Assembly (NCBI GenBank): GCA_027475525.1
Contig: JAMWFC010000122.1
Coordinates: 496,001 to 560,000, forward strand
Length of the DNA: 64,000 bases
Source: Macrolepiota albuminosa
Taxonomy: Eukaryota; Basidiomycota; Agaricomycetes; Agaricales; Agaricaceae
Direction of reading: 5' to 3'
A program made the translations under genes and the position numbers. This document shows positions 2,721 to 43,799 of this stretch, in pieces. Within the stretch, counting starts at the first letter, position 1. Each line of letters begins with the position of its first letter. Under the pieces are notes generated by a model. The model had not been told where the DNA came from, did no database searches, and saw only the letters and a program-made list of their open reading frames with translations.

Positions 2721-2730
2721 CTATTGATAC

Positions 2731-2752
2731 GTCTGCCTCACTCGAGGCAGAC
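2731..2752 (+). other. Terminal LTR hairpin (9-bp stem)
   Basis: GTCTGCCTC, loop ACTC, GAGGCAGAC: a perfect 9-bp inverted repeat beginning 6 bp inside the LTR start. The same stem occurs at 12409-12430 and, with a different loop, in copy 2 at 34614-34636. Its role is unknown. Being next to the integrase-processed end, or lying in the promoter U3, are both possible reasons for its retention. Confidence 0.75.
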
Positions 2753-3123
2753 TAAAACAGTCAAATAAATCCCAAAACTATACCCAAAAACGCTGAAAAC
2801 TGTAAGCGATAAAAGTCGAAAACTGTAGACTAGGGATGACGCACCTTTTAAACCCCAAAAACCATATACAAAGACTCGTCGAAACCATAGCAGAGCAGTA
2901 AACCAGGCAGTGAGGCGGCAGCCATCAAGGGGTGATGGCGCGGGAATAACCGAGGAGGTGGCAGTGTTTGGCAGGGATTAGATCTCGGCATAACATCTGA
3001 GATCAACATCCTGTCCAAACACTGACATCACTCAGCTTGCCACCGATCCATCGTCCCGTTTCTAAACCTGCCGCACAACCACGAAGTCTCCTCCTCACAG
3101 CCCACCACCACGCACTCAAGTCA

Positions 3124-3277
3124 GAAAAAGAGACGTGTGAAAGAAGAGAGGCAACGAGCTGAGGAAAAGGAACGACAGAACCACGGAAAAAGGTTTAGCC
3201 GAAAAAGAGACGTGTGAAAGAAGAGAGGCAACGAGCTGAGGAAAAGGAACGACAGAACCACGGAAAAAGGTTTAGCC
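3124..3277. repeat. 77-bp tandem duplication (two units) in 5' LTR
   Basis: Unit 1 is 3124-3200 and unit 2 is 3201-3277. The partner LTR near 24008-24085 has one unit. Same period as ten other duplications in the window; probably an assembly junction. Confidence 0.85.
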
Positions 3278-3436
3278 AGAGAAAAAGAAAACCACGCGGT
3301 TGAGCACCAGGGAACACAAGTGCCGGTGCCCAGCCTCGGTAAAACATCGAGCACGCCAAGCACCTGGGCCCGGTAGCATGACGAGACAACGAAATCACAC
3401 GTGGGACAGGCATGGTCTGTGCGTCAGAGACAGGGG

Positions 3437-3443
3437 TATAAAA
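3437..3443 (+). promoter_or_regulatory. TATA box of element A 5' LTR promoter
   Basis: TATAAAA preceded by a G run. The same motif lies at 24245-24251 in the 3' LTR and, on the minus strand, at 34019-34025 and 43174-43180 in the copy 2 LTRs. Conservation across diverged LTR subfamilies supports it as the U3 promoter. Transcription would start a few tens of bases downstream. Confidence 0.7.
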
Positions 3444-3649
3444 GGGAGAGGAATTTGGGGGAGTTGGGCAAGCAATCGACTTGCCACGGCTTGGAGTCCC
3501 CAGGGAGTGGACATCTTAGGCCAATAGCACACAGATTGTCTTCGGGCTTTAGTAGTAATACTTATTTGCACCCATTTCGAGTGATAACTTTAAGTTTTCA
3601 TTCAAATAAAACAATTAAAAATTATACACTGCTTTTACAAAGTGCGCGT

Positions 3650-3803
3650 GAGTGTAGCTCTTGCCCCACGTACTCTGTGAATTTGTGGAGTTGAAATATA
3701 ATAAAGTTCAGTCTGAATTCCATTTTGAGTGTAGCTCTTGCCCCACGTACTCTGTGAATTTGTGGAGTTGAAATATAATAAAGTTCAGTCTGAATTCCAT
3801 TTC
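3650..3803. repeat. 77-bp tandem duplication (two units) near the end of the 5' LTR
   Basis: Unit 1 is 3650-3726 and unit 2 is 3727-3803. The 3' LTR at 24463-24540 has a single unit. It duplicates the polyadenylation-signal-like part of the LTR. Confidence 0.85.
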
Positions 3804-3844
3804 GGACTACTTTACATAGAGTAAATAACACATTTCGCATCATC

Positions 3845-9400: not shown

Positions 9401-10302
9401 TGTTTGAGGATGTGATTTGCCGCTGGGGCTGCATTGCAGAAATCATCACAGATAATGCTGGACAGTTCAAGCAGGTCACTGCCTGGTTGGAAAAGAAGTA
9501 TGGGATCAGAGGTATTACTATCTCCCCTTACAACTCACCAGCTAATGGTAGAATTGAAAGACCTCATTGGGATGTCAGGCAAGCTTTGTTCAAAGCCTGT
9601 GAGGATCGCACTAAATGGTTCTGGTTCTTCTACCATGTAATGTGGAGTGACAGGATAACCATTAGGCAGAGGTTTGGATGCTCACCATACTTCATGGTCA
9701 CTGGTGCACATCCTACCCTACCCTTGGATCTAGCAGAGGCCACTTGGCTGGTAGAATTACCAGAAGGACCTCTGACTACTGAGGAGTTGATTGGATATCG
9801 TGCTAGAGCCCTAGCCAAACACCACCAGCATGTGGAAGAGATGAGAGAGCGAGTTGGGAAGGCTAAGCTCCAATGGGCATTGAAGTTTGCAGAGGAGCAT
9901 AAAAGCTCAATCAAAGACTTCAATTTTAAACCATTGGACTTGGTACTAGTCAAAAACATGACTACAGAAAGTTCATTCAGTGCTAAGATGCTGCCACGGT
10001 TTCATGGGCCTATGGTTGTGATTGCCAAGACTCAGGGTGGTAATTACATTGTAGCAGAACTAGATGGGTCAGTTTGGCAAGCACGAGTAGCTGCTTTTCG
10101 AGTGGTACCTTACAAGGCTCGCAAAAAGCTAATCTTGCCTCAGGGCATAGAGAAGTGGGTAGATATTACACCTGCTAAGCTAAAAGAGCTAAGGGAAGAA
10201 CTACAAAAACCTACAAAGTCAATCACCAAAGATATCTCATTTGGCACAGTCAGGCTCCATGAGCCCACTGACCAGGAGTTAGGTCTGCCACCAGCTGATT
10301 AA
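6478..10302 (+). CDS. Pol: reverse transcriptase, RNase H and integrase, element A copy 1
   Basis: An open reading frame of 1274 codons in the -1 frame after protease. RT carries the active-site motif YIDD at about residues 370-373, followed by an unusually long insertion before the next conserved RT segment. RNase H follows (VDTSWMAVGFGIF, then IETDAKYL). Integrase has an H-H-C-C zinc domain from about residue 868 (HDALGHRG ending CHNCQIRQ) and D,D,E residues in IHIDTMH, IITDNAGQF and SPANGRIERP. The C terminus has a GPY/F-like RFHGPMVV motif and no chromodomain. Domain order is Ty3/gypsy. The coding region uses few CpG-containing codons and has no internal stop. Confidence 0.9.
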   Translation: MSLEELVTDQGEIAISLAETQEGEIVVTGYSMEHSKFSQEELRDVYLHAFTASKECEEKEQKTLSAYLNGHLAQIPDSLEELLVQEENLESKAGVGETAQVFSKKYKPVARKVKPVLGTSPEEFRIERCITGDPLADMPQLDPNPPEFKPTGRYTAECKEVIDQAHGDGFLWPEEMKAVHHLMMLQNQAFAWDDSQRGRLKEEFFPPVIMPVIPHTPWVLKNIPIAPGLRDRICKMIKQKIEAGVYEPSNSSYRSQWFTVLKKDGESLRIVHSLEPLNKVTIAHSGLPPATEELASHFSGRACGGIFDLYVGYDERVLDVRSRDYTTFQTPFGALRLVTLPMGWTNSVPIFHDDITFILKDEIPHVTWPYIDDVPVRGPPHRYELPDGGCEVIPENPGIRRFVWEHLLNVNRVLQRIKYAGGTFSGKKSVVCADEIVVVGHRCSYEGQKPETKRFAIVMGWGDCRDKHEVKSFLGTCGTFRSFIKDYAKVAAPINKLTQNNVPFTWGEEQRSAMAQMKKLLAESAPLKPIDYESGGAVVLSVDTSWMAVGFGIFQEDPDNPKMRTCAKLGSITLNEREARFSQPKRELYGLMRSLLANKHWLVGCRKLVIETDAKYLKGMLGNPGVGPNATIMRWIENVLLYHFTLRHVSGKTFSVDGLSRWPKQSGDEEYPPVDPELMDEPKSMNYEYPDKINNIPGWEDWEPWELEEFADQIDTRGGYLNMVATEVSDFEQELCRARSQEQELRDGILSQTPGTSMNPVAVLAMTMPLLPVEDQEVRVEDTQTYLEHRKGGEGEDWDNLLPTVQSWLQDPGTEPKNLQGWDLEKFKKFARQFFFDKKGRLYKRCHEEKHKLVVQIDRRMFMLKSAHDALGHRGAYATRMLIQERFWWPGIEGDVQWYVGTCHNCQIRQKTVVNREPTVTYTPSIFQTIHIDTMHMTPASNGCKYIVHGRCALSSWMEGRPLRKENHKTIGQWLFEDVICRWGCIAEIITDNAGQFKQVTAWLEKKYGIRGITISPYNSPANGRIERPHWDVRQALFKACEDRTKWFWFFYHVMWSDRITIRQRFGCSPYFMVTGAHPTLPLDLAEATWLVELPEGPLTTEELIGYRARALAKHHQHVEEMRERVGKAKLQWALKFAEEHKSSIKDFNFKPLDLVLVKNMTTESSFSAKMLPRFHGPMVVIAKTQGGNYIVAELDGSVWQARVAAFRVVPYKARKKLILPQGIEKWVDITPAKLKELREELQKPTKSITKDISFGTVRLHEPTDQELGLPPAD

Positions 10303-10913: not shown

Positions 10914-12194
10914 TTATACTGCCACGGGGTCTTCAGATCCCTCCTGCGGGAGGTCTTGAAACTTGATGTCAGAATCGTCCTGTCCAGACTGTACATAAAA
11001 CAGTTTAAGTGACACAGACATGGCAGTTATTAAAGACGTACCGGCAGTGAGACTTGAAGAGCGTGCAGTAACGAACCTGCTTGGTCAACCTCAGAAGGGC
11101 CAAGTGTCTTGCTGAGGCGAGCGTGACGGTCAGAAATAAGCTTGAACGTCTGCAACGCAATGTCGAGCTGATAAAGTTGATGTTGTGCGGCCAAATTAAC
11201 GGCGTCAAGGTGCTTTTGGAGGTCGGTGCAAGGAACCACTTCGCCGTCGTCAGCCAACTGAACGGAGTCGAGAACGTGGTTGACTTCGGAAAGCAACACC
11301 AATGTGTCTTCATGGCCAGGGAGGTGGTTAGCTTGAGTAACCGGCGTTTAGCAAAGAGGGGCAAGGCAGCAAAGAGACAGGGACGTACCCAATGCGGGTT
11401 GTACCTTGAGCTTCTTGGCCTTAGGCTTACCGTTGGGCTCAGCCTGGGAAAAAGGAAGGGAAATGGTCAAGGTGTCAAGATGGCGGGCTACGAGGTCAAG
11501 CTTGCGAGCTAGACTTACGTTAGCACAGCATTTTGAAGGGCGAACAACAGGTGTACCCAGCATCTCAACATCTTTGTCGTGTGCTCGGCGTTGTGCCTAG
11601 GAGAAAAGGAGATGAAGCCAGTGTGAAAAATAGAGGAAGGAATGAACCTCCTCAAGCTCCTTCCAAAGTTTCTCGCGGCGTCGTTCCCCAATAATGGTGA
11701 TGGCGTCGGCGAATAGAAAGAAGGCCTTCACGTCACTGGAACCGTCAGCAACGCTGCGGTCCAACAACGGAAGGACGTCAGACAAGGCCTCACAGAGGAT
11801 CCGCTGGTCAGAGAGGCGAGGGAATTGAGTCTCGTTGGAAAAACGCTGAAAGAGACAGTGAGAGCGAGGACAAAAGAGGCAGGAAGGAAAGGCGTACCCA
11901 GCTGAGACTCCCAAGGTACCGGGTCTGGTTGGAAGGCATACCAGGGAAGGATTTGGCAGTGGCAAAGAGACCCACCGCAGCCTCCGCAAACAATGGGAGC
12001 TTCAGTACCAAAGTAATCACGTTGTTTGTGTCCCGCTTCACGGAACGCTGAAGCATGCCAAAGAAGTCTGGTGGCTCAGGCAAGTTTGGAGGCGGCGGAA
12101 CAGCTGGTCTGGGAGGCGTCGAGATAATGACTTGAGGACGCGGTTTGGCGGTCACGGACCTGCAAGGAGCAGTAGGGATGCCTGAGGGAGCCAT
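10914..12194 (-). CDS. Antisense spliced gene of element A copy 1, unknown function (330 aa)
   Basis: Six exons on the strand opposite gag-pol: 12194-11898, 11845-11648, 11596-11519, 11443-11389, 11331-11042 and 10988-10914. All five introns (51-75 bp) are GT-AG and the joined frame is open for 330 codons to TAA. Donors are GTACGC, GTTCAT (weak), GTAAGT, GTACGT and GTACGT. Copy 2 has the same gene with every intron at the same place and phase. The protein has a proline-rich N terminus (ISTPPRPAVPPPP), a helical middle, a lysine-rich NLS-like patch (GKPKAKKLKV) and a long helical segment in exon 5. No known domain was recognised. Introns are on the strand not spliced in the genomic RNA, so they would survive retrotransposition. 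Transcription would start from the 3' LTR side. Confidence 0.8.
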
Positions 12195-12393
12195 ATGGTA
12201 GTACGGGTGGCACAAATCGTGCTTTTAAGCCAGTACGGGTATGATCAAGCATGGAGAAAGAAAAACAAAATTTTATTTTTTGTCTGTCTACTATGGGGCA
12301 GAGAAAAATTAATTTGGCTGGGATCGACGATTGGAAGAGAGGACCAACTCACCAGGCTACTGCTTATAACTGGGGACAGTCATTATATTGGTG

Positions 12394-12402: not shown

Positions 12403-12617
12403 TGATATGTCTGCCTCACTCGAGGCAGACTAAAACAGTCAAATAAATCCCAAAACTATACCCAAAAACGCTGAAAACTGTAAGCGATAAAAGTCGAAAA
12501 CTGTAGACTAGGGATGACGCACCTTTTAAACCCCAAAAACCGTATACAAAGACTCGTCGAAACCACAGCAGAGCAGTAAACCAGGCAGTGAGGCGGCAGC
12601 CATCAAGGAGTGATGGC
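12403..12617 (+). repeat. 3' LTR of element A copy 1, left part
   Basis: First 215 bp of the 3' LTR, matching 2725-2937 closely, including the terminal hairpin at 12409-12430. It is interrupted at 12617 by element B. The last five bases, ATGGC (12613-12617), are the target site of element B. Confidence 0.9.
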
Positions 12618-13445
12618 TGTCACGACCCCTCCCCTCCGGGCCCACCCCGGGACACCCCCGGAACACCCTCCGGGACCCTCCCTCCAACCCCACAAGACAC
12701 GCCCCGCCATCACGACCGCTGACACCGCCATGATGCGCATCAAGGACTGCCATCAGCCGCCACCAGCCCCGATCAACGATCGGATCACGCGAATCGTTCC
12801 TGGCCATCACGCATCACGCATCACAACTTCCTCCATGCCAATTGATTGCGCGCCCCACACGCGCGATCCCGGTATACAACCCCTGCCGCTACTCAATGAC
12901 TCCCGGAACCCATCCCAGACACCCCGGAGCCCCGAGACCTGGCCCCGTAGTACTTATAGCACAGTTCCCTGTTGTATTCGGTAGTCTTGATATTACATAC
13001 ACTGTTACTTTGCTTTACTTGGATTGTTGCGTGCCCTCTATTTGACTGGTACGCATTGACTGGCACGCTTGACTGGCACGCTTGGATATTCGCGTGCTCT
13101 AAGACTGGTACGCACTTCGCGACGTTAACTTACTAACTTGGTCTCTTGACTGGCACGCTTGGATATTCGCGTGCTCTAAGACTGGTACGCACTTCGCGAC
13201 GTTAACTTACTAACTTGGTCTCGTCTTAGAACCTCCGGTTCACGACTCGACCCCCACCCGAACTCCCCAGTTACCACCACCCAAAACCCCCGGACTAAGT
13301 CCCCTCTCCCGGGATTTCCCTGTCCACGTCTTGAACCCCGGAGTCCTAGCCCCGGAGTTCCAGACACCCGAGTATCTGTGGGTCAAGTCCGCATTGTAAG
13401 GGCGATTGCTTTCCCGGAAAGCCCCCGACTCAGTGGAACCTGACA
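12618..13445 (+). repeat. 5' LTR of element B
   Basis: Starts TGTCACG and ends CCTGACA. It is 828 bp against 724 bp for the 3' LTR. The excess is accounted for by one 77-bp duplication, a 12-bp and a 15-bp repeat-unit indel. Conserved blocks rich in TGGCACGC/TGGTACGC repeats occupy its centre. Confidence 0.9.
13068..13222. repeat. 77-bp tandem duplication in the element B 5' LTR
   Basis: Units start at 13069 and 13146. The 3' LTR and the solo LTR each have one unit. Same period as the other ten. Confidence 0.85.
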
Positions 13446-13591
13446 TAATATCAAGACTCCCTCCTTACACCGTTCTTGATGGCTACATATACTCACACTT
13501 ACTACCCCACGGGCACCTGACATAATATCAAGACTCCCTCCTTACACCGTTCTTGATGGCTACATATACTCACACTTACTACCCCACGGGC
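13438..13591. repeat. 77-bp tandem duplication across the LTR/leader junction of element B
   Basis: Units start at 13438 and 13515. It repeats the LTR end, the leader and the Gag start codon, so a second ATG at 13479 runs into a stop while the ATG at 13556 opens Gag. Confidence 0.85.
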
Positions 13592-15540
13592 TACCAGACC
13601 GACCCCTATGGCCGCCTGGTACCCAAGCATTACTCCGCACGGACCCTCCGCCCCATCTACCCACCCCTCCCGTACGAACCCCCGTATCTCCACCGCCACT
13701 GGGCCCCCGACCCATCCCTCTATGATCTGGGGCCCTCAGCCAGCTGGGCCCCTCTGCCCAACTTAGCCATGGCACGACCCGTGGAGGTCCCCTCGTACCG
13801 GAGCATCCCCGGGGGCCTGCCGGAGACCCCACCAGTACCCAGTGGACCTCGCCCGATCCCCCCCAGCAAGGGCCCCTTTGCACCCACCCCCTACTACGGC
13901 TACCAGTGCCCCGTTCCCCAACCCCGAGAACCCCAAGGACCCCCCTACCTCGACTACCCCCCTCGTCACTACCCGGCCGCCGCTCCACCTGCTCGAACCC
14001 CTCCCTTGCCAATGGGACAACGACGCCTCAAGGAGTATGAACGGCAACGGGACGAAGTACTCCACTCACTCAGGATCTCGCCGGAGGACTTCGCGCAACG
14101 GGCAAGGGCGCTGCTCACGGAATTCGGACACGACGACTTCGAAGGCACTCCGAAGGAATGGGCTCATTGCTTGGTTGAATTCGGGGACCGCCTTACACGA
14201 GGAGAACTCCCGGAGCAAACTATGGTAAAGTATAGGCGCAATATGATCCTCCGAGAAGAGTTGCAGCAGCTGCTTGACGAAGTCCATGTGTCCCCCTCCC
14301 CTTGACCCCTCAACGACCCGGCGGACCCAGGTCGCTCAATTCACGTTTGACGGGAACCCCCGGAGCCGGCCCCGGCAGCTCCAACAGCCCCCGCGGACCC
14401 CACTCTGGAACAACGACAACGGGAAGAGCAACAAAACGCCTCAGCCATATTGCGGTCCCTCAACCCGACTGGAGGCCTCTTCGATCAACCTGCTGCCCGC
14501 ACAGTAGGCTTGTCCACTTGCCGCAGGGCTAACTCCGTTCCTAGTACCTTCGAGACCTGGGGACAGCCCCAAAGACCCCTGGAACCGCTTCCGCGAATGG
14601 ACAATGCCCGACCCCCGGCCCCGGCGAACCCCGGTAGACCCTGCGCGGACACCCCTAGCACGGACGACACGCTGTGCTACATTGACAAGCTCACGCGTGG
14701 CAACAACAAACCACGTCCCGTGCCTGTGCCCGTCCCGGTACCGCCCCCTACGTCAGCCCTGGCCCCTCCGGAACGCAACTTCCGCCGCGACCCCCCACCC
14801 CACTTCGATCTATGGAACCCCCCGCAACCCCCGATGCAAGCACAACCCTCCCAGGTTGAACGTCCCCCGCACGACCCAGCACCCAACCCCCCTCCACCCG
14901 ACCCAACACCGCCGAACCCTCCCCGACCACCTCCGCCACCCCCAGCCGAACCTCAAGGACGACCCCCAGGTCCCCCACTTCCGCCACCCCCTGCGTGGAG
15001 ACCCAGGCCTCCTCCCGGCAGGAACGAACCCCCCTGGGACAACGGGCCTCCTGGGCGTGGACCCCCAGGTGAGCCACCTGGAGGAGGACCTCCCAGCGGG
15101 TGGGGTCCCACCCTTGGTGCTTTTCCTCCTCAAGGAGGGGGGGGTAATCACTACTACTACTATTACAATGCTGGCCCCCCTCCCCGCAACGCTGCCGGAC
15201 CGGACGACGCTCACGACACCCTTGCCTGTGAAGGACGATTGGACATCCAAAAGCCCGACGCTTTCACGGGCCAGGACCCCCGAAAATGGCGTACCTTCCT
15301 CACTCAGTGTCTCAATACATTTCAGGCAAAGCCGCTCACGTTTCAGGTTGACAGCTCCTGGGTGGCCTTTGCCGCATCATACCTCCAGGGGATCGCCTTC
15401 GATCACTACACGGCCCTCATCCAGTTCGACCCCAACAACCCGGCACTCGCTCGCTGGCAAGCCTTCGTCGACGAGTTCTCCGGGAAATTCGGGATATACG
15501 ACACCGTGGCCGAGGCCGAGGACAACCTCTTCAACCTCCG

Positions 15541-15694
15541 GATGCGCTCGGAAGAGCGTTTCACCACCTTTATCGTACGTTTTGAGAAGGAAGCTTACGA
15601 AACAGGTTGGAACTACAGATGCGCTCCAAAGAACGTTTCACCACCTTTATCGTACGTTTTGAGAAGGAAGCTTACGAAACAGGTTGGAACTATA
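15541..15694. repeat. 77-bp imperfect tandem duplication in Gag of element B
   Basis: Units start at 15541 and 15618. They differ at several bases near the start and at the end, unlike most of the other duplications, so polishing or a mixture of repeat copies must be assumed if it is an assembly join. Confidence 0.75.
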
Positions 15695-15761
15695 GCGCCC
15701 TCCGGTACGCCCTCCGCCGCGCCCTGCCACAACGCATCAAGGACGTCCTCCGACTCGCCCC

Positions 15762-15915
15762 AAAACAACCCTCCTACGACGGATACAAGGCCCTCGTCAT
15801 GCAGATCGACCAATGCTACTGGGAAGACCGCAGCGAGTAAAACAACCCTCCTACGACGGATACAAGGCCCTCGTCATGCAGATCGACCAATGCTACTGGG
15901 AAGACCGCAGCGAGT
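15762..15915. repeat. 77-bp tandem duplication in Gag of element B
   Basis: Units start at 15762 and 15839. The join creates a stop codon at 15838-15840 in the middle of Gag. Confidence 0.85.
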
Positions 15916-17155
15916 ATTCGAATTCCCGACCCCCCTGGAACCCTAGGGGAGGACCCCCTTGGCCCTCCGGTAAAGCCCCCAACCCCCAAGGTTGAAACCC
16001 TGGTCCCCCCGCGTTTCCTGGTGGCTGACCCCCGGTAAGTCGCGGCCCACCCAATGCTAACCCCAGCAGCGGCGTCCGCCCCCAGGCCCAGCTTAACACC
16101 GCCGTGGCCGTCCACGACCCAGGCAACGTGCCAAGCCCTGAGGAACCCTTGGAAGACCCCGAAGACTTCGACTTCGACGACGAACGGGACGAGGAGGCCC
16201 TTCAGGCCAACCGGCTTCAAAAGAAGGGACGACCCTGGATCGAAGTCCCGACGGATGTGCAGGAACGACGGAGAAGGGAGGGTGTCTGCATACTCTGTGG
16301 TGAGAAAGACCATTTCATCTCCGAGTGCCCCAAACAACAGGTCATGGGACGTGCCACCTGGACCTTCGAAGGGGAGGACGCCACCTATGAGTATTCAGAA
16401 AACGACCTGGCGATTTAGACCTGGAAGATGCCCTAAATTGCGGAATTGACCCCGATGTCTTCTTCGCCCCGGTCTCACATCTTCGCTCTACGACACTCAT
16501 ACAGGACACCCTCACGGCTTACCTACCCTCCCACTCTTCACACTCCCTCCTCCTCAAAACCCGCCTCACCCCCTCCGGAACCCCCCTTGACACCCTCGTT
16601 GACAGTGGTGCCACCGACAACTTCATCGACAAAGCATGGTCTACCTTCGCCCCGGAACCCGCTCAGCGACTCCCGGTCCCGGTACAGCTCTGCCTCTTCG
16701 ATGGAGACGCCTCTACGGTGGGGGACATCACTCATTTTGTGCATATGCCCGTTACCTTCGCCAATAGACAGACTCACACCCTCCGGATGTTGATAACCAA
16801 ACTCCACCCTTCCGCACCCCTGGTCCTAGGGCTCCCGTGGCTCCGAGACACCAATCCCCGCATTGATTGGCGACATCTCACCCTTCGACTGACCCGGGAC
16901 CCAACGCCCAACGACCAGCAACTCCCCTTCGACATCCCCCACTCTCCGGACCCTACCCCAAAGGACGGGCCTCCACCACCCCCCGGACTCCAGTCCCGTT
17001 CGTCCCAATCCTTTGTCATCAATGCCAGGCTGGACGGCGCCCCAGGACCAGTATCGGCCCTCATCGACAGCGGAGCCACCGGAGTTTTCATCAGCGACAC
17101 TCTCGACCTCCCCCACGACTCCCTCGACCAGCCCCTCTGCCTGCAACGCCTCGAT

Positions 17156-17309
17156 GGCACCCCCTCCTCCTCCGGCCCCATCCAGAGGTCTCACTCGGGA
17201 CGTGTGACCCTGGACAACAACTACGAGTTCACGGCACCCCCTCCTCCTCCGGCCCCATCCAGAGGTCTCACTCGGGACGTGTGACCCTGGACAACAACTA
17301 CGAGTTCAC
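17156..17309. repeat. 77-bp tandem duplication in protease of element B
   Basis: Units start at 17156 and 17233. It falls within the second retropepsin module. Confidence 0.85.
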
Positions 17310-33695: not shown

Positions 33696-34642
33696 TGATG
33701 CGAAATGGGAAGTTTACTTTATTTAAAGTAGTCCAAAATGTAATTTAGACTGAACTTTGTTGTATTTCGACTGTCCCAACTTCACAGAGTACGTGGGGCA
33801 ACGTTACACGTGCACACACTTTGTAGAAAGTGATTATAATTTTTAATTGATTTATTTGAATGAAAAACTTAAAGTTTACACTCGAAATGGGTCAAAATAG
33901 TATTATTACTAAAACCCGAAGTAAATCTAGTCGCTCGTAGGCCTAAGACGTCCACTCCCTGGGGACTCCGAGCCATGGCAAGTTGATTACTTGCCTGACT
34001 CCCCCATCTTCATCCTCCTTTTATACCTTTTCCCTCGCTGCACGGACCACTCCTATTTCCCTCGTGTTTACTCGTAGTCTCGTTATTACTCGTCCAGGAC
34101 ACGATTGTGCTGGATCTGGGCCCTGGTTGTTGCGTTTCCGAGACTGCCGTCGTGGCTAATAGTTCGTCCATTGGATTGTATGGCTAATCCCTTCTTCTGC
34201 TTCTATTTCCTCCCTCACTTCTTTGTTTTCCCCTGCATCGTCTTCCTGGAGCTCCTGGTCTCATTCTATGGCCACCTCGGGTCGTACTGTAGGCTTGGGG
34301 ACGTGTTTGCACGAGGTCGCGATGGTCGGGAGGGAATTCGGATTTGGCTTTTGATGGGTGATGCCAAATGAGATTTCGGGGCTTCTGCCGAGATCTTATC
34401 TTGTGCACTGCCACCATCGGCTAATTCCTCGTGATCGCCTTTCTGATCGCTGGTTGCGCACCTCATTACTACGTACTTGGCTCGTCGTTTTATTGTCAGG
34501 GTTTGTTTTTGAGGTAAGGCTTCCGGCGTCTACGGTTTTCAACGCAATGCTTACAGTTTTCAGCATTTGTTTTATTAAAACACGGGTATATTGGGAGCCG
34601 TTGATACCAGCTTGTCTGCCTCAGTTGGAGGCAGACGTATCA
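33696..34642 (-). repeat. 3' LTR of element A copy 2
   Basis: Reads TGATGCG to GTATCA on the plus strand. It has a TATA box at 34019-34025 (minus) and the terminal hairpin at 34614-34636 with loop AGTTG. A purine tract follows in element orientation at 34643-34650. Confidence 0.9.
34614..34636 (-). other. Terminal LTR hairpin, copy 2 version
   Basis: GTCTGCCTC, loop AGTTG, GAGGCAGAC. The stem is the same 9 bp as in copy 1, while the loop differs in sequence and length. The other LTR of this copy (43772-43794) has one G/A change in the stem. Confidence 0.75.
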
Positions 34643-34855
34643 CCTCCCCCACACCATATAATGACTGCCCTCAGTCATCGTAGTAGACTTGATGTGTCCT
34701 GCCTTTCTTTCGATCACTGCTCCCAGCAGGAACTAAATTTTTCTTCTCTTACAGATAGAAAAATAAATTTCTTTGCCTTTTTCCCTCTTTTTCTCGACGT
34801 TCGATCATACCTGTCCTGGGTTTTTAAGTGCAACCTGAGTTGCCCATATCCCACC

Positions 34856-36142
34856 ATGGCTCCTCCTGGTGCGCCTACTGCCCCTCGCAGATCCGCGACC
34901 TCAAAACCTCGTCCTCAAGTCATCATCTCAACGCCTCCCAAGCCAGCTGTCCCGCCACCCCAGCCCGTGCCTGTCCTGACAGATTTTTATGGCTTGTTCC
35001 AGCACGCTGTCAAGCGTGATGGCAACAAGGCTATAACGTCGGTGTTCAAGTACCCATGGTTCACAGAGGCCATGATCGGCCTCTGTGCCACTGCTAGGTC
35101 TTTTCCCGGAACACCTGCCGACCGTGCTCGGTTTTTAGGTGGCGCTGGCTGGGTCTGTTTTTCTCCTTTTCCCTTTCCTCCTTACTTCCGTCTGATGTCT
35201 CGCACAGCGTTTTGCCGATGAGAGCACCTTCGGCCGTCTTGCCGAACAGAGAGGTCTCTGTGAGACCCTCTCCGAGATCCTCCCTTTGCTTGACCGTGGT
35301 GCAGCTGATGCTTCGGGCGACGTGAAGGCGTTCTTTTCCTTTGTCGACGTCTTCATTCCCTTTGCGCAGCATGAAAAACTTAGGAAGGAGCGTGAAGAAG
35401 TAAGCTTTCTTTTTGGCTTTATATTGTATTCTCACACGCTTATCCTGCGTTTCTTAGGCTCAACATTGTGCGCAAGATAAAGACGTCAAAATGCTCGGTA
35501 CGCCTGCCTCTCTCCCAACCAAGCGCCGCGCTAACGTAAGTTAAAGCTCAGAAGCTTGACTTAGTAGTGCGACGTCTTGACATGCTGACGCTATCCCTTC
35601 CTCCTCCTCAGGTCAAGCCCAAGGGCAAACCGAAGGCAAAACAACTGAAAGTGCAGCCATCGCTGGGTGCGTCTTCTGTTACTTTTGTTGCCTTGGTTTT
35701 CGCTAACTGCCTGTTACTCAGCTAATCATCTTCCTGGCAATGAAGCTGCACTAGCATTGCTTTGTGAAGTTGATCAGGTTCTTGAGTCCGTTCAGCTGGC
35801 TGACGACGATGAGGTGGTTCCCCATGCCGACCTCCAAAAGCATTTTGATGCCGTTGATCTAGCTGCGCAGCACCAGCTTTATCAACTGGACATCTCTTTG
35901 CAGACCTTCAAGCTCATCACAGACTGCCGTGCTCGTCTTTGCAAGACCCTTGGTCTTTCCGAAGTTGACCAAGCCGGCTCTCTCCTTCACGCGCTTCAGG
36001 TTTCTCTGCCGGTACGTCCTTACTATCTTCTTGTGTCTACCTCATTGCTCAGCTGCTTGTTTTACAGTCTGGTAACGATGATTCCGACATTGATTTTCAG
36101 GACCTCCCCCAGGACGAACCTGAAGACTCCGTGGCACTATAG
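34856..36142 (+). CDS. Antisense spliced gene of element A copy 2, unknown function (328 aa)
   Basis: Six exons: 34856-35152, 35208-35399, 35458-35535, 35612-35666, 35722-36011 and 36068-36142. The joined frame is open for 328 codons to TAG. The ATG sits in a strong context (CCACCATGG). Introns are 55, 58, 76, 55 and 56 bp, all GT-AG, with donors GTCTGT (weak), GTAAGC, GTAAGT, GTGCGT and GTACGT. Exon lengths equal those of copy 1 except exon 2 (two codons shorter). Proteins are roughly 60-70% identical by eye while introns do not align, which indicates selection on the protein. Features are a Pro-rich N terminus (ISTPPKPAVPPP), a KGKPKAKQLK basic patch, a helical exon 5 (QLYQLDISLQTFKLI) and an acidic C terminus. 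No known domain. Confidence 0.82.
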
Positions 36143-36736
36143 ACGTCCCCCTCGTTGTAAACACCGGCTCTGCCTTTGCCTAGCCTAGTTTTAAAATAAT
36201 TCCCCCTCTTCTTTAAATCCGTAGTCCCCAATAAAATTCTTAGATCCGAAACATGTGACTCTTAAGTTTTTCGGTTGATAACTTATCAACACGTTTCTTT
36301 TCTTTTCTGAATTTATTTCATTCTCCCCCCTTTGTGGTTCAAACACTTGACGCTGGTGTAGCATGGTCAAAAGTTCGTCCCCCTCTTAGTTCCGTACTTG
36401 AATATTGACTACGAGTCAATGTTTTAGTGCGTCCTTAGGGGTTTGAACTCCAGCGCGGGCATGCTTTGTCAACGTTCCTTTTGTAAACAAGTCCTAAGAC
36501 TCAGTCTGTACTTGAACGTTGACACGCGTTGTCACTTTTCTTCGTAACCTCGTCAGTGACTGACTTGGTTGAGGACCAGTTTGCTTCCTGGGGGAGCTTC
36601 CTCTTATGGGCTAGTACTTCCCCTGGCATGCCTTCCCACTGTCAAAGCACCCTTTTTCCTTTTACTGTTAAAACGTTGAGTAGTACTGAACTGTTATTAT
36701 TTCTTTGAAATATATCATAGTTCATTTCTCTGAGTT
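36143..36736. other. Spacer between the antisense gene and Pol, copy 2
   Basis: No ORF of note. It is the counterpart of 10303-10913 but largely unalignable to it. One T-loop-like GTTCAAACC is readable on the minus strand near 36450 and a GTTCAAAC on the plus strand near 36337. Confidence 0.45.
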
Positions 36737-39700
36737 CTAATCAGTTTGTGGGAGACCTAACTCCTGGTCAGTAGGCTCATGGAGCCTCACTGTGCCAAAT
36801 GAGATGTCTTTGGTGACTGACTCGGTAGGTCTTCGTAGTTCTTCCCTTAGCTCTTTCAGCTTAGCAGGTGTAATGTCCACCCACTTTTCTATGCCTTGAG
36901 GCAAGGTTAGCTTTTTACGAGCTTTGTAGGGTACAACTCGAAAAGCAGCTACTCGTGCTTGCCAAACTGACCCATCTAGTTCTGCTACAATGTAATTGCC
37001 TTCCTGAGTCTTGGCAACTACTACCATAGGCCCATGAAATCGTGGCAACATCTTAGCACTGAATGAACTTTCTGTAGTCATGTTTTTGACTAGTACCAAG
37101 TCCAATGGTTTAAAATTGAAGTCTTTGATTGAGCTTTTATGCTCTTCTGCAAACTTCAATGCCCATTGGAGCTTAGCCTTCCCAACTCGCTCTCTCATCT
37201 CCTCTACATGTTGATGGTGTTTGGCTAGGGCTCTAGCACGATATCCAATCAACTCCTCAGTAGTCAGAGGTCCTTCTGGTAATTCTACCAGCCAGGTGGC
37301 CTCTGCTAGATCCAAGGGTAGAGTAGGATGAGCACCAGTGACCATGAAGTATGGTGAGCATCCAAATCTCTGCCTAATGGTTATACGGTCACTCCACATC
37401 ACATGGTAGAAGAACCAGAACCACTTGGTGCGATCCTCACAGGCCTTGAACAAAGCTTGCCTGACATCCCAATGAGGTCTTTCAATTCTACCATTAGCTG
37501 GTGAGTTGTAAGGAGAGATAGTAATACCTCTGATCCCATACTTCTTTTCCAACCAGGCAGTGACCTGCTTGAACTGTCCTGCATTATCTGTGATGATTTC
37601 GGCAATGCAACCCCAGTGGCAAATCACATCCTCAAATAACCATTGACCAATGGTCTTATGGTTCTCTTTTCTCAGAGGTCTACCTTCCATCCAAGAAGAC
37701 AAGGCACACCTGCCATGTACTATGTACTTACAGCCATTGGAGGCTGGTGTCATGTGCATGGTATCAATGTGAATTGTTTGAAAGATGGAAGGAGTATAAG
37801 TTACAGTTGGTTCCCTGTTGACTACTGTCTTTTGTCTGATTTGACAATTGTGACAAGTCCCAACATACCACTGTACATCCCCTTCAATACCAGGCCACCA
37901 GAAGCGCTCCTGTATAAGCATTCTGGTGGCATAGGCTCCCCTATGTCCTAAGGCATCATGGGCTGATTTAAGCATGAACATTCGTCTATCAACTTGGACT
38001 ACTAGTTTAAACTCTTCAAGTTCCAAAGGTTCCCCATTCTCCCAACCAGGTATATTATTGATCTTGTCTGGATACTCATAGTTCATAGACTTGGGTTCAT
38101 CCATTAACTCAGGATCAACTGGTGGGTACTCCTCATCTCCTGGCTGCTTAGGCCGCCTTGACAAACCATCCACACTGAATGTTTTGCCTGGTACATGCCT
38201 TAAGGTAAAGTGGTAGAGTAGGACATTCTCAATCCATCTCATGATAGTGGCATTGGGTCCTACTCCTGGATTCCCTAGCATCTCCTTAAGATACTTGGCA
38301 TCTGTCTCTATCACTAGTTTTCTACAACCAACTAGCCAATGCCTGTTGGCTAGCAGAGATCTCATGAGACCATACAGCTCTCTTTTTGGTTGAGAAAATC
38401 TAGCTTCTCTCTCATTCAGGGTGATAGATCCTAACTTGGCACAAGTGCGCATTTTAGGATTGTCTGGGTCTTCTTGGAAGATCCCAAAACCTACTGCCAT
38501 CCAGGATGTATCCACTGACAGAACTACTGCACCTCCTGACTCATAGTCAATGGGTTTTAAAGGAGCACTTTCTGCTAGCAACTTTTTCATTTGTGCCATT
38601 GCAGAGCGCTGGTCCTCTCCCCAAGTGAAAGGCACATCATTCTGAGTAAGCTTATTGATAGGTGCCGCTACCTTGGCATAGTCCTTGATAAAGAATCTAA
38701 AGGTACCACAGGTCCCTAAAAATGACCTTATTTCATGTTTATCCCTGCAGTCACCCCATCCCATCACTATGGCAAATCTCTTTGTTTCTGGCGTCTGCCC
38801 TTCATAAGAGCATCTATGGCCAACAACCACAATCTCATCTGCACATACTACTGACTTCTTGCCAGAGAAAGTTCCCCCTGCATATTTGATTCTCTGTAAC
38901 ACTCTATTCACATTGAGTAGGTGTTCCCATACAAATCTCCTAATGCCTGGATTCTCTGGTATGACTTCACAGCTACCATCTGGCAACTCATATCTATGAG
39001 GTGGCCCTCTGACTGGTACATCATCAATGTATGGCCAAGTTACATGTGGTATTTCATCTTTCAAGATGAAGGTAATATCATCATGGAAGATAGGCACTGA
39101 ATTTGTCCATCCCATTGGTAAGGTAACCAACCTCAGAGCCCCAAATGGTGTCTGGAATGTAGTATAATCTCTAGAGTGCACATCTAGTACTCTCTCATCA
39201 TATCCTACATACAAGTCAAAGATTCCTCCACAAGCCCTGCCTGAGAAGTGACTAGCTAATTCTTCAGTTGCTGGTGGCAACCCAGAATGTGCTATGGTCA
39301 CTTTATTCAAAGGCTCCAAGCTATGGACTATCCTCAAGCTCTCACCATCCTTCTTCAACACTGTAAACCATTGGGAGCGATATGAGGAGTTAGAGGGTTC
39401 ATAGACCCCTGCCTCAATCTTCTGCTTTATCATTTTGCAGATTCTATCCCTAAGACCTGGTGCAATGGGAATGTTCTTCAACACCCATGGGGTGTGAGGT
39501 ATTACTGGCATGATTACTGGAGGGAAGAATTCCTCCTTCAGCCTGCCTCTTTGAGAATCATCCCATGCAAAAGCCTGGTTTTGCAGCATCATAAGGTGAT
39601 GTACTGCTTTCATCTCCTCTGGCCAAAGAAAACCATCACCATGGGCTTGGTCAATGACTTCTTTGCACTCAGCTGTGTATCTCCCTGTGGGTTTGAACTC

Positions 39701-40138
39701 TGGTGGATTGGGATCCAACTGAGGCATGTCTGCCAGTGGGTCTCCAGTAATGCACCTCTCAATTCTAAACTCCTCAGGTGAGGTACCTAGTACAGGCTTA
39801 ACTTTTCTAGCCACAGGTTTGTATTTCTTAGAAAATACTTGGGCAGTCTCCCCCACACCTGCTTTTGACTCTAAGTTTTCCTCTTGTACTAGCAACTCCT
39901 CAAGACTGTCAGGTATTTGAGCTAAATGCCCATTCAAATATGCTGACAATGTCTTCTGCTCCTTCTCCTCACACTCCTTGCTTGCTGTAAAAGCATGCAA
40001 GTACACATCTCTCAACTCTTCCTGACTGAATTTACTATGTTCCATAGAATATCCAGTCACCACAATCTCCCCTTCCTGAGTCTCAGCAAGACTTATTGCA
40101 ATCTCTCCCTGGTCTGTAACCAGTTCCTCGAGACTCAA
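36737..40138 (-). CDS. Pol: RT, RNase H and integrase, element A copy 2
   Basis: 1133 codons with the same domains and motifs as copy 1 (YIDD; HHCC; D,D,E) and about 98% residue identity. The first 270 or so residues are identical, and differences become denser towards the 3' end, around the last 40 codons. An in-frame loss of 141 codons removes most of the linker between RNase H and integrase, joining LEEF directly to KLVVQ. The zinc domain remains. Whether the shortened linker is functional is unknown. Confidence 0.88.
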   Translation of the reverse strand: MSLEELVTDQGEIAISLAETQEGEIVVTGYSMEHSKFSQEELRDVYLHAFTASKECEEKEQKTLSAYLNGHLAQIPDSLEELLVQEENLESKAGVGETAQVFSKKYKPVARKVKPVLGTSPEEFRIERCITGDPLADMPQLDPNPPEFKPTGRYTAECKEVIDQAHGDGFLWPEEMKAVHHLMMLQNQAFAWDDSQRGRLKEEFFPPVIMPVIPHTPWVLKNIPIAPGLRDRICKMIKQKIEAGVYEPSNSSYRSQWFTVLKKDGESLRIVHSLEPLNKVTIAHSGLPPATEELASHFSGRACGGIFDLYVGYDERVLDVHSRDYTTFQTPFGALRLVTLPMGWTNSVPIFHDDITFILKDEIPHVTWPYIDDVPVRGPPHRYELPDGSCEVIPENPGIRRFVWEHLLNVNRVLQRIKYAGGTFSGKKSVVCADEIVVVGHRCSYEGQTPETKRFAIVMGWGDCRDKHEIRSFLGTCGTFRFFIKDYAKVAAPINKLTQNDVPFTWGEDQRSAMAQMKKLLAESAPLKPIDYESGGAVVLSVDTSWMAVGFGIFQEDPDNPKMRTCAKLGSITLNEREARFSQPKRELYGLMRSLLANRHWLVGCRKLVIETDAKYLKEMLGNPGVGPNATIMRWIENVLLYHFTLRHVPGKTFSVDGLSRRPKQPGDEEYPPVDPELMDEPKSMNYEYPDKINNIPGWENGEPLELEEFKLVVQVDRRMFMLKSAHDALGHRGAYATRMLIQERFWWPGIEGDVQWYVGTCHNCQIRQKTVVNREPTVTYTPSIFQTIHIDTMHMTPASNGCKYIVHGRCALSSWMEGRPLRKENHKTIGQWLFEDVICHWGCIAEIITDNAGQFKQVTAWLEKKYGIRGITISPYNSPANGRIERPHWDVRQALFKACEDRTKWFWFFYHVMWSDRITIRQRFGCSPYFMVTGAHPTLPLDLAEATWLVELPEGPLTTEELIGYRARALAKHHQHVEEMRERVGKAKLQWALKFAEEHKSSIKDFNFKPLDLVLVKNMTTESSFSAKMLPRFHGPMVVVAKTQEGNYIVAELDGSVWQARVAAFRVVPYKARKKLTLPQGIEKWVDITPAKLKELREELRRPTESVTKDISFGTVRLHEPTDQELGLPQTD

Positions 40139-41237
40139 AATTTTGCTTCACTCTCCCTAGCAGCCCCTGCCTTTGGCATTTTGCCTCTTTCAATAGTAGG
40201 CAGGGCAGTTCGACAACCTGTATTAGGGTCTCGAATGGTGATAATGGCACTGCCATCCTGCAAGTTTTGAATGTTGCTTTCTGTCAAGGTGTCAAAGGGA
40301 CGACCCAATAAGACAGTATAAGCAGGACTCTCAAAAATATGCACTTGTAGATAGATAGTGAACCCTTCAGCAAAAGTGAATGGCACATTATGTGCTAAAC
40401 CAACAGATTCATTTACTTGCTGATTGGCACTTTCCATCCTCAGCCTAATGTCTGGATCCCAAGTCAATCCTAGATTGAGAGCCTCTCTTAAAGCCATGCA
40501 GACTATTTGAGACCCACTATCTAGAATTGCCTCTGCTCTACCCTTTTGATTGACAACTGGGTTGAGAGATCTCAGAACCTGCAGCTCCCTAGCTACATAT
40601 ACCACTACTGGCTTTTCTCCTGTTGGGATATTTTCCAAGTAAGTGGCAACACAATCCTGGTGCACTACTGCACCAGTAGGCAAGCCAGATTGTGTTCCAT
40701 CTGCAATGAAGTAGGTGGCCATAGGTAGATCATTAACATCTACCTTGTCAGGCTCTTTCTCCACTGCTGTCAGATGTTGAGTAGCTGTCCTAGGAATGTT
40801 GGGTTCCTTAGGCCTGGGAGGCTTTGGTACTAACTTTTGTACCATGACCTCCCTCAAACCAGGTGCCACATCCAGAAGTTCTCTGGTGGTTAGTGGCACT
40901 GGTACCTCCCACAGCTTCTCAACCATCTTCTCCAACTCCTTCCTAGTTCCCTGAATGGAACTCCTACCAGTGTCCTGCACTGGTACCTCCTGCCTCTCAT
41001 TCAAAGCTGGCACTCCTTCCTAGTTCCCTGAATGGAACTCCTACCAGTGTCCTGCACTGGTACCTCCTGCCTCTCATTCAAAGCTGGTACCTTCTCAAAA
41101 AGTAAGTCCAACTTGGGTGCCACTTTGGGTGGAATCCTTAAAGTTAGCTTTTCTTTCCAGGAATTTTGTGGCTGTCTCTCTGTCAATGTGGGTATTCCTG
41201 GTGGAGCTTCCCCCATTTTCTTCATTGAGCTCCTCAA
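40135..41237 (-). CDS. Protease ORF, element A copy 2 (frame broken by a 77-bp duplication)
   Basis: Same -1 overlaps with Gag (41234-41237) and Pol (40135-40138) as in copy 1. The DSG motif ILDSGSQIV and LLGRPFDTL are intact. A tandem 77-bp duplication (40935-41088) splits the frame into 41237-41001 and 41013-40135. With one unit the ORF equals that of copy 1. The break is probably an assembly error and not a real mutation. Confidence 0.8.
40935..41088. repeat. 77-bp tandem duplication in protease of element A copy 2
   Basis: Units start at 40935 and 41012; copy 1 has one unit (within 5620-5700). The period is the same as in elements A copy 1 and B. Confidence 0.88.
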
Positions 41238-42805
41238 AAATCCTTGGACCCTCCTTGTTGTCCTTCACCAGGACTAGGAGCATGCCTGGTGTTGACTAAA
41301 ACTGACATGACTTCTGTCAGTCTCTGAAAGCCCTTTTCCAGTTCTCCCAGCCTGTCTGCTTCTCCATGCTGGATGCGCTCCAACATGTCATCCCTAGTAT
41401 CTCTTACAGCATTGGTGTAAGTAGAGTAGGTTGGGATGTCTTGAGCTTCCTCAGCCCAGCCAAAGTATAACCCCACTTGAGAGTCATGTAACTTCATCAC
41501 CCTATCATGTGGTGATATACTGGATGGCTCTCTGGGTAGAGGAGCTCTGTTGGGCATTCTAGTCCTCCCATCTACTAGGATCACCCATCCCTTTTGAACA
41601 TCTGATTTCACCTGCTCACACTCAGCTATACGATGACCAGTTCCCCAACAGTAGAAGCAATATGTGCTTCCACCAGGTGTTGGCATCATTGCCTGAGCAG
41701 GCCTCTCTGTTTGCCCTCCATGGTGGCTTTTGGTAGTTAGGAAAGCATTCCTCATGTCCAGTTGGCTAGTTTGCAGAGCTTGCATAGCACTTTGGATGCT
41801 GCCAACCTGCTTCCCAATAGCAACCATAGAGTCTTGCAGATGAGCCATCCTCTCTTCTGCCTCCTCATTTTTCACTACTACTCCACCCACCTCCCTGTTG
41901 GTGGTCTCTCCCCTAGTTTTCCTGACAGTTGTCCCATCTACTAGGGCTGTCACCACTGCTATCACTTCAGACAAGTCATACTTGTTGTCTTTGTGACGAT
42001 TACGAGCAGGATCCCTGTAATGGCCATGTTTGTGGATGAGTCTCTCCTCCACTAACTCTGCCAGGGTGGGTGTAAAACACCCCATAAACTTATCCACCAA
42101 TACCCCATTCCCTACAACACTATCCAACTTTTTGGCTTCAGCCCTGAATTTTCTGATTAAGGAGTGCAGCTCAGGGGCATCCCCTCTGCTTAGCCTGGCA
42201 TGCTCCTTACAGATCCTATCCAGGTTTGCCATGCTTCCTGCCTCATCCATAGCTTCAGGGTATGATTCCTTAACCTCCCTTATAAAGGTGGCCCAAGGAT
42301 ATCTATCCTCAAAACTGTCGAACCCTCTCCATTCCTGCTCAGTCTCTGCATCCACATATTCTAATAACCTCTTCTTCTTTTCTCCATCCTCCACAATGCC
42401 TGCATGATTGAATAGAGACTGCATTCTCTGCAGAAACCTGTGAACCTCAGCAGGCTCACTGCTTCTGAACTTGGGTGCATCTCTACTTTCAGGCAATGGC
42501 ATTTTATATCGCATGGGTTGCTCCATAATGCTGGTCAACTTAGTTGGCTCAGGCAATGAAGACTTAGGTGTTTGTGGTGTAGGCGTGTACTTCTCAGTCC
42601 GAAGTTTTCGTTTACAAAGTACAGCGTCTGGATCTGGGAGACTAGCAACTGTGCCCTTGGAGGATGCACGAGTTTCTCTTCTCCTGGGAGAAATAATGGT
42701 TTTTGCCCTTGGTGTAGTAACCTTAGGCGTGCCGGGCCAAGAACCTGGCGGTGCAAAACTAATGTTTCTTTTTGGTGGTTTGGACTCCAAATGGAGATCC
42801 GACAA
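41234..42805 (-). CDS. Gag polyprotein, element A copy 2
   Basis: 523 codons from the TTG equivalent to that of copy 1, with about eight residue differences. It has the same CCHC knuckle (C-FY-C-WGTG-H-RIAE-C), the same absence of ATG for the first 93 codons and the same GAT TTT TGA end. The near-identity starts at the Gag leader; upstream of about 42820 the two copies diverge sharply. Confidence 0.87.
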   Translation of the reverse strand: MSDLHLESKPPKRNISFAPPGSWPGTPKVTTPRAKTIISPRRRETRASSKGTVASLPDPDAVLCKRKLRTEKYTPTPQTPKSSLPEPTKLTSIMEQPMRYKMPLPESRDAPKFRSSEPAEVHRFLQRMQSLFNHAGIVEDGEKKKRLLEYVDAETEQEWRGFDSFEDRYPWATFIREVKESYPEAMDEAGSMANLDRICKEHARLSRGDAPELHSLIRKFRAEAKKLDSVVGNGVLVDKFMGCFTPTLAELVEERLIHKHGHYRDPARNRHKDNKYDLSEVIAVVTALVDGTTVRKTRGETTNREVGGVVVKNEEAEERMAHLQDSMVAIGKQVGSIQSAMQALQTSQLDMRNAFLTTKSHHGGQTERPAQAMMPTPGGSTYCFYCWGTGHRIAECEQVKSDVQKGWVILVDGRTRMPNRAPLPREPSSISPHDRVMKLHDSQVGLYFGWAEEAQDIPTYSTYTNAVRDTRDDMLERIQHGEADRLGELEKGFQRLTEVMSVLVNTRHAPSPGEGQQGGSKDF

Positions 42806-42831
42806 AGTGATAGTTTGTGCAACAAAAGCCC

Positions 42832-42848
42832 CCTCACGGTGGGCTCCA
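42832..42848 (-). promoter_or_regulatory. Primer binding site of element A copy 2
   Basis: TGGAGCCCACCGTGAGG on the minus strand, two bases from the 5' LTR end. It differs from copy 1 only by C to T at one CpG. Confidence 0.6.
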
Positions 42849-42850
42849 GA

Positions 42851-43799
42851 TGATGCAAAATGGGAAGTTTACTTTATTTAAAGTAGTCCAAAATGTAATT
42901 TAGACTGAACTTTGTTGTATTTCAACTGTCCCAACTTCACAGAGTACGTGGGGCAACGTTACATGCGCACACACTTTGTAGAAAGTGATTATAATTTTTA
43001 ATTGATTTATTTGAATGAAAAACTTAAAGTTTACACTCGAAATGGGTCAAAATAGTATTATTACTAAAACCCGAAGTAAATCTAGTCGCTCGTAGGCCTA
43101 AGACGTCCACTCCCTGGGGACTCCGAGCCATGGCAAGTTGATTACTTGCCCGACTCCCCCATCTTCGTCCTCCTTTTATACCTTTTCCCTCGCTGCACGG
43201 ACCACTCCTATTTCCCTCGTGTTTACTTGTAGTCTCGTTATTACTCGTCCGGGACACGATTGTGCCGGATCTGGGCCCTGGTTGTTGCGTTTCCGAGACT
43301 GCCGTCGTGGCTAATAGTTCGTCCATCGGATTGTATGGCTAATCCCTTCTTCTGCTTCTATTTCCTCCCTCACTTCTTTGTTTTCCCCTGCATCGTCTTC
43401 CTGGAGCTCCTGGTCTCATTCTATGGCCACCTCGGGTCGTACTGTAGGCTTGGGGACGTGTTTGCACGAGGTCGCGATGGTCGGGAGGGAATTCGGATTT
43501 GGCTTTTGATGGGTGATGCCAAATGAGATTTCGGGGCTTCTGCCGAGATCTTATCTTGTGCACTGCCACCATCGGCTAATTCCTCGTGATCGCCTTTCTG
43601 ATCGCTGGTTGCGCACCTCGTTACTACGTACTTGGCTCGTCGTTTTTATTGTCAGGGTTTTTCTTTTGAGGTAAGGCTCCCGGCGTCTACGGTTTTCGAC
43701 GCAATGCTTACAGTTTTCAGCATTTGTTTTATTAAAACACGGGTATATTGGGAGCCGTTGATACCAGCTTGTCTGCCTCAGTTGGAGGCGGACGTATCA
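42851..43799 (-). repeat. 5' LTR of element A copy 2
   Basis: 949 bp, nearly identical to 33696-34642. TATA box at 43174-43180 (minus). It is followed by the target duplication ATAG at 43800-43803. Confidence 0.9.

Follow-up and report, generated by a model that had tools for sequence, protein, structure and literature searches.

Two copies of an LTR retrotransposon in the genome of Macrolepiota albuminosa carry, between pol and the 3' LTR and on the strand opposite to gag-pol, a gene interrupted by introns, which raises the questions of whether this is a genuine gene of the element and what its product might do. The window, i.e., the whole stretch of DNA analysed, comprises 64,000 nt of assembly GCA_027475525.1 (contig JAMWFC010000122.1, positions 496,001–560,000, forward strand); coordinates given below refer to this window.

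Carrier elements and organization of the antisense gene

The two copies, elements A and B, had been attributed to a gypsy lineage in an initial annotation, and this attribution holds, as paired LTRs are accompanied by a CTAT target-site repeat and by the order protease, RT-RNase H, integrase. Pfam domains were found in the corresponding order Asp protease (below the Pfam cut-off), RT_RNaseH and Integrase_H2C2. The RT domain itself gave no Pfam match at E ≤ 1; its YIDD motif was recognized by eye, and PF00078 is carried by some relatives. A pol sharing 66% identity occurs in Armillaria. The components of the two elements are:

2725..3842, forward strand: 5' LTR of element A, containing two exact 77-nt tandem duplications
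3888-5459, forward strand: gag-like frame of element A
5456-6481, forward strand: protease frame of element A
6478-10302, forward strand: RT-RNaseH-integrase frame of element A
12403..12617, forward strand: start of the 3' LTR of element A, interrupted by a nested element from about 12618 and resuming at about 23820-24573
33696..43799, reverse strand: element B, with LTRs at 33696-34642 and 42851-43799
41234-42805, 40135-41013 and 36737-40138, reverse strand: frames of element B
5456-5459 and 6478-6481 (element A), 40135-40138 (element B): frame overlaps
3124, 3649, 13068, 13438, 15762, 17156, 19550, 20491 and 20726: 77-nt duplications in the window

Both elements are flanked by CTAT (2715–2724, 24574, 33695 and 43800), which hints at a target preference. 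Each transition between the gag-like, protease and RT-integrase frames involves a one-base step back, with 4-nt overlaps at GGATTTTTGA and AAAATTTTGA, where –1 frameshifting or termination-reinitiation is possible. The pol frame of element B (36737–40138) lacks, in frame, about 141 codons between RNase H and integrase, corresponding to positions 8608–9029 of element A. The 3' LTR of element A is interrupted by a further LTR element (12618–23819); this nested element has open frames on both strands at about 21300–22700, after its pol, among which no gene was resolved. Exact 77-nt tandem duplications occur nine times in the window and 21 times in ten of the 29 loci fetched from the genome (L009–L037), and exon 3 of L010 is broken by one such duplication; as their length is always 77, they are suspected to be an artefact of assembly (unmerged k-mer overlaps) and not a biological feature.

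The antisense gene of copy A spans 12194–10914 and has 993 nt of coding sequence for 330 amino acids, while that of copy B (34856–36142) codes for 328 amino acids. As proposed in the initial annotation, both consist of six exons with five GT-AG introns each, in equal order and with equal phases. Introns measure 52, 51, 75, 57 and 53 nt in copy A and 55, 58, 76, 55 and 56 nt in copy B; exon sizes (297, 192, 78, 55, 290 and 75 nt in copy B) are the same in both copies, apart from exon 2 with its 198 nt in copy A. The parts of the gene, including those of a second predicted isoform (b) discussed below, are located as follows:

11898..12194, reverse strand: copy A exon 1, 297 nt, 99 codons, ending in phase 0
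11648..11845, reverse strand: copy A exon 2, 198 nt
11519..11596, reverse strand: copy A exon 3 of predicted isoform a, 78 nt, ending ...GCTAAC and followed by GTAAGT
11557..11596, reverse strand: copy A exon 3 of predicted isoform b, the first 40 nt, ending ATGCTGG and followed by the donor GTACAC
11509..11556, reverse strand: predicted isoform b intron of copy A, 48 nt, GTACAC...TGCTAAC GTAAGTCTAG
11444..11508, reverse strand: segment b of copy A, 65 nt, reading ARKLDLVARHLDTLTISLPFSQ in the frame of exon 4
11389..11443, reverse strand: copy A exon 4, 55 nt, with the basic cluster KPKAKKLKV
11042..11331, reverse strand: copy A exon 5, 290 nt, C-terminal helical region
10914..10988, reverse strand: copy A exon 6 with stop, 75 nt
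34856-35152, 35208-35399, 35458-35535, 35612-35666, 35722-36011 and 36068-36142, forward strand: copy B exons
35458-35497, forward strand: copy B exon 3 of predicted isoform b
35547..35611, forward strand: segment b of copy B, 65 nt, AQKLDLVVRRLDMLTLSLPPPQ

That the gene belongs to the retrotransposon, as had been supposed, is borne out by its surroundings. All 20 loci for which flanks were available have the C-terminal part of pol on the opposite strand, immediately past the 3' end of the antisense gene; on the upstream side, the start of an LTR was recognised in A, B and 19 of these 20 loci, L026 being the exception. The start codon of the gene is located about 210 bp away from the 3' LTR, and a distance of about 610 bp separates the end of the gene from the pol stop. 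In a search starting from pol, 40 places out of 101 candidates were scored; an antisense gene occurs within 3 kb of pol, on the opposite strand, at 36 of these 40 (30 by DNA match, six by protein match). Among the other four, L039 has retained an exon-6 match, L040 and L041 show no match to the antisense gene in about 2 kb, and the sequence of the remaining place, on C68, was not fetched. The gene shares two attributes with the antisense accessory genes of LTR retrotransposons (aORF-3R), namely its place between pol and the 3' LTR on the opposite strand, and a conserved coding sequence that most family members have retained. Being located on the minus strand, its splice signals are invisible in the sense genomic RNA and hence survive each round of retrotransposition.

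Selection on the protein and a predicted splice choice at intron 3

A search of the genome (100,137,612 bases) with the DNA of the antisense gene, in which 40 of 53 first-look candidates were scored, revealed at least 43 matches, some of them being pieces of one copy. Copies A and B were aligned with 28 of the 29 fetched loci (30 rows, 26 distinct sequences); L009, lengthened by an insertion, was kept out. GT-AG ends are present in 140 of the 150 introns projected onto the 30 rows, and the deviating sites comprise eight donors (8/150; AT or GC) and two acceptors. The frame is open to the final stop in 22 of the 30 rows, corresponding to 18 distinct sequences; in two of these rows, L012 and L020, the aligned start is not ATG, and an ATG is located three codons further in. 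Judging from the 140 GT-AG introns and the 22 open rows, the antisense gene is not a product of chance. The antisense gene is identical in five loci on different contigs (L021, L022, L023, L024 and L025), which points to recent amplification.

Silent changes clearly exceed replacement changes in the aligned coding sequences. Comparison of A and B (NG86) yielded pN 0.17 and pS 0.68, and dN 0.20 and dS 1.81, the latter being near saturation. The dN/dS ratio, which had been set beforehand as a test of selection, showed a median of 0.11 (range 0.06–0.40) for the 143 usable out of 153 pairs of the 18 distinct sequences, ten pairs being dropped from the Nei-Gojobori analysis due to dS <0.05 or saturation; the value is rough because most pairs have a dS close to 1 or higher, and the copies look mosaic, which breaks the assumptions behind dN/dS. 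The closest pair listed, copy B and L016, had a dN/dS of 0.40 at a dS of 0.09, as expected for the decay of single insertions. Taken together, the median dN/dS, the open frames and the conserved exon plan confirm the earlier proposal that the protein is under selection. The accompanying claim that the introns are unalignable was correct for introns 1, 2, 4 and 5, with p-distances of 0.43–0.53 as compared to mean values of 0.241–0.303 for the exons (26 distinct copies), but not for intron 3, which differs by 0.232 per site.

The exon-like divergence of intron 3 is due to its terminal part, segment b, which is conserved and open in frame with exon 4. Segment b, which in copy A sits within intron 3a (11518–11444), comprises the last 65 nt of the intron in 23 of the 26 distinct copies and 59 nt in L011, L014 and L036, the 6-nt difference preserving the frame. 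It reads ARKLDLVARRLDTLTLSLPPPQ or close, shares its frame with exon 4, is open in 25 of 26 copies, and shows a mean p-distance of 0.244, similar to the exons and unlike the other four introns. In its frame, pN is 0.136 and pS 0.510 (ratio 0.27; 23 equal-length copies), whereas the other two frames have pN/pS ratios of 1.16 and 1.69 and contain stops in 23 of 23 copies. Ahead of segment b is a spacer of 9–12 nt (GTAAGT, a few bases, and AG), whose length varies irrespective of frame, as for a non-coding spacer. A second donor, GTAC or GTAT following ATGCTNN, is located within exon 3, its GT being present in 26 of 26 copies, and the AG right after GTAAGT provides a second acceptor. In 25 of 26 copies, exon 3 terminates in CTAAC or CTAAT (CTAAY), the form that is usual for fungal branch sites; in copy A, the branch-site-like CTAAC of the isoform b intron coincides with the end of exon 3a. 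The frame is kept when the first 40 nt of exon 3 are joined to segment b, and the intron removed would measure 47–50 nt across copies. In all 18 coding sequences, T is the third base of the codons in which donor b and the branch-like site lie; for comparison, an invariant third base occurs in 3 of 47 fully conserved fourfold columns.

Since intron 3 contains a second conserved coding segment, the antisense gene likely has two mutually exclusive in-frame isoforms: donor a falls inside the isoform b intron, while donor b and the branch-like site fall inside exon 3a, and therefore one message carries one form only. Intron 3 would act as a switch. Splicing from GTAAGT to the distal CAG would result in isoform a, in which a segment of the K-R-R-A-N type, disordered in the model, is joined to the KPKAKKLKV cluster, whereas use of the upstream GTAC/GTAT donor with the AG just behind GTAAGT would produce isoform b, which would be without the K-R-R-A-N segment and whose long helix is predicted to gain about 20 residues.

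A search for homologues, a step recommended in the initial annotation, was productive. A database of 5.8 billion proteins, searched twice with about 8,000 candidates scored each time, contains at least 79 relatives, all from Termitomyces among the matches listed; the best identity between copies from this genome and the Termitomyces models is 64%. By motif count, the 79 listed Termitomyces models comprise 18 with segment a only, 16 with b only, 12 with both (read through) and 33 with neither, of which 24 are shorter than 280 amino acids and nine are not. Segment a was taken in some models and b in others, both peptides being recognisably alike; the proteins appear to be gene predictions, so that the a/b choice in them is no proof of splicing. 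A second family exists in the same genome (48 DNA matches, some being pieces). Its member L044, the sole one fully read, surfaced as a weak extra match in a protein search of the own genome. The pol product of L044 is 65% identical over 691 residues to that of the first family, and an antisense gene adjoins pol. Spliced by eye at GT-AG sites, this gene has six exons with phases shared with the first family, and both forms are in frame, a with KRKAND at the end of exon 3 and b with TQIDELFTRFAHFLLSLQ. Profile comparison of L044 with the first family gave a probability of 99.7 (E 3.8e-26, 32% identity, 275 columns).

Divergence of the LTR side, protein features and possible functions

The end of pol shows a median difference of 2–7% per 150-base bin among 20 copies (five of them identical). 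Right past the pol stop (window position about 10300), the difference amounts to 23–42% and persists through the antisense gene. Median pN and pS are 0.013 and 0.168 for the pol C-terminus of 16 copies, and 0.156 and 0.665 for the antisense gene (18 distinct coding sequences), the two sets overlapping without being identical. As for the 5' LTRs of A and B, most of the sequence hardly aligns, whereas identity amounts to 80% further on and to 96% over the last bases together with the start of gag. Such sharp steps can hardly result from mutation alone, suggesting repeated exchange by which one gag-pol core would have been set beside many LTR-plus-gene cassettes; template switching between co-packaged RNAs would be the simplest route.

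Two inverted repeats, situated on the two sides of the polypurine tract, covary between copies:

12366..12383, forward strand: inverted repeat before the polypurine tract
12409..12430, forward strand: inverted repeat GTCTGCCTC-ACTC-GAGGCAGAC, LTR positions 7-28

In a set of 17 sequences (A, B and 15 others) from 22 elements, with the duplicates L022–L025 and also L026 omitted, 94.5% of the cells pair, as compared to 88.4% in shuffles, and five pairs show changes on both sides. The covariation score of 0.141 (0.040 in shuffles) was reached by none of 500 shuffles, which ignore relatedness, the structure having been drawn from one member sequence; the count of further pair types is not above that of the shuffles (188 of 500 reach it). 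The repeats may form RNA structures close to the site of priming, or may serve for binding.

The initial annotation recognised no domain in the antisense protein, and scanning of the B and L015 proteins likewise revealed no Pfam family at E ≤ 1, neither bZIP nor TRP28 (PF04195) included; a DNA-binding motif supporting a regulator role was not found. VIA-align, which barely covered the N-terminal domain, did not indicate a significant known fold. For an a-type protein from Termitomyces, AlphaFold (37 sequences, mean pLDDT 74.6) predicted with confidence a helical domain at about residues 20–158, which includes a small pair of strands, followed by a disordered basic stretch and a long helical hairpin. 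The b-type model (72 sequences, mean pLDDT 77.5) shares the helical domain, but the helix spanning residues 119–158 in the a-type model extends over 119–179, so that the switch would trade a flexible stretch for a longer helix. Exon 3a ends in KRRAN or KRRTN in 15 of the 26 distinct copies; the other 11, among them copy A (KCCAN), have lost at least one residue of the motif. Basic clusters suggest a nuclear signal, the a-specific one not being kept everywhere.

With middling confidence, we regard the protein as an accessory nuclear regulator of its own element. The antisense gene would then be an accessory gene of a Ty3/gypsy-type LTR retrotransposon family, encoded opposite to gag-pol and probably transcribed from a promoter within the 3' LTR or close to it. 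Its product would enter the nucleus and regulate the element, most likely by damping or timing LTR expression, by analogy with the activity reported for APH-3/4 and with proposals for plant antisense ORFs, and the a/b ratio might set location or partner binding.

Rather unlikely, though worth considering, is a direct role in replication instead of regulation, in which a particle or preintegration-complex factor, translated from a separate antisense message, would for instance bring cDNA into the nucleus or bind genomic RNA. The basic clusters adjoin long helices, the gene is kept at 36 of the 40 scored pol places, and residues 117–197 weakly match a lentiviral matrix chain (E 2.5e-4 with a narrow profile). 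However, the match drops to E 0.71 with a broader profile, Foldseek gave no match at E ≤ 0.001, and gene and LTR diverge greatly beside a near-uniform pol end, which is unexpected for a part that has to fit Gag and Pol. Many fungal elements face silencing, and retention at most pol places under strong selection would also suit a protein that counters host genome defence in trans, e.g., by suppressing RNA silencing or DNA methylation. We consider this quite improbable, as the protein has no recognised domain and no named relative beyond Termitomyces hypothetical proteins among the matches listed, and the rapid divergence of the cassettes is compatible with such a function but not specific for it. 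The antisense transcript itself might be the working product, exerting antisense RNA control of pol or the LTR; its position and reports on antisense transcripts of several retroelements that act as RNA (PMC7264820, PMC10186651) agree with this, but the frame, the phases and the codon-level selection in 18 distinct sequences, as well as the second in-frame segment and the 140 of 150 GT-AG introns, point to a protein and make an RNA function very unlikely. That the gene was captured from the host, or is a passenger ORF of no use to the element, would agree with the lack of a recognised homologue outside elements, but is hardly credible: dN/dS is well under 1, the gene is retained at 36 of the 40 pol places scored, and it occurs in two families with pol products 65% identical.

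LTR and antisense gene might together form an exchangeable "immunity cassette", a notion that we regard as unlikely. The protein would control only elements with its own LTR type, perhaps via the covarying inverted repeat at LTR positions 7–28, and, in analogy to the immunity regions of lambdoid phages, the near-uniform gag-pol core would spread by recombining with many diverged cassettes. In that case, the a/b splice switch would set repression against release.

Comparison with known systems

Antisense genes between pol and the 3' LTR are known from plants and from fungal Boty (PMC7264820, PMC8365987, PMC11963269). The open-licence literature searched describes neither the present gene nor its introns and predicted splice choice, and no antisense gene combining five introns with a conserved, mutually exclusive choice of splicing came to light there. 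The plant antisense ORFs resemble the present gene in place, orientation and retention in most copies, and the antisense protein of Grande is described as nuclear and as having its own promoter (PMC7264820, PMC11963269). The protein of M. albuminosa is encoded by six exons with a conserved, predicted alternative splice, and the TRP28 domain of the Retand antisense proteins was not found in it. For plant antisense ORFs, the portion of PMC7264820 considered here names no introns, and the word "intron" is absent from the main text of PMC11963269. The brtn gene of Boty-like elements from Botrytis cinerea (Zhao et al. 2011, as cited in PMC8365987 and PMC7264820) is also an antisense extra gene in a fungal LTR element; its carrier, unlike the elements studied here, is an ascomycete element. 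Among the matches listed, the homologues, up to 64% identical, are Termitomyces entries such as C0992_007712, named hypothetical proteins and not retrotransposon genes.

Antisense accessory genes of retrotransposons are known yet unexplained, and dozens of copies in each of two families, together with the Termitomyces relatives, render the role of such genes tractable to test. The present gene would also be an example of how a gene with many introns and alternative splicing can pass through reverse transcription in a retroelement, namely by being kept on its silent strand.

Among retroviruses, HBZ of HTLV-1 and APH-2/3/4 of HTLV-2/3/4 are spliced antisense genes near the 3' LTR; HBZ is nuclear and occurs in spliced and unspliced protein forms, and APH-3 and APH-4 suppress 5' LTR-driven transcription (PMC10186651). 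With these genes, as with those of plants and Boty, the M. albuminosa gene would at most share its way of working. The resemblance to HBZ pointed out in the initial annotation stands for the layout but does not extend to the protein, in which neither a bZIP domain (Pfam, E ≤ 1) nor homology to HBZ was detected. Whereas the retroviral HBZ forms carry bZIP and differ at the N terminus, the gene of the M. albuminosa elements has five introns and a predicted internal, mutually exclusive choice.
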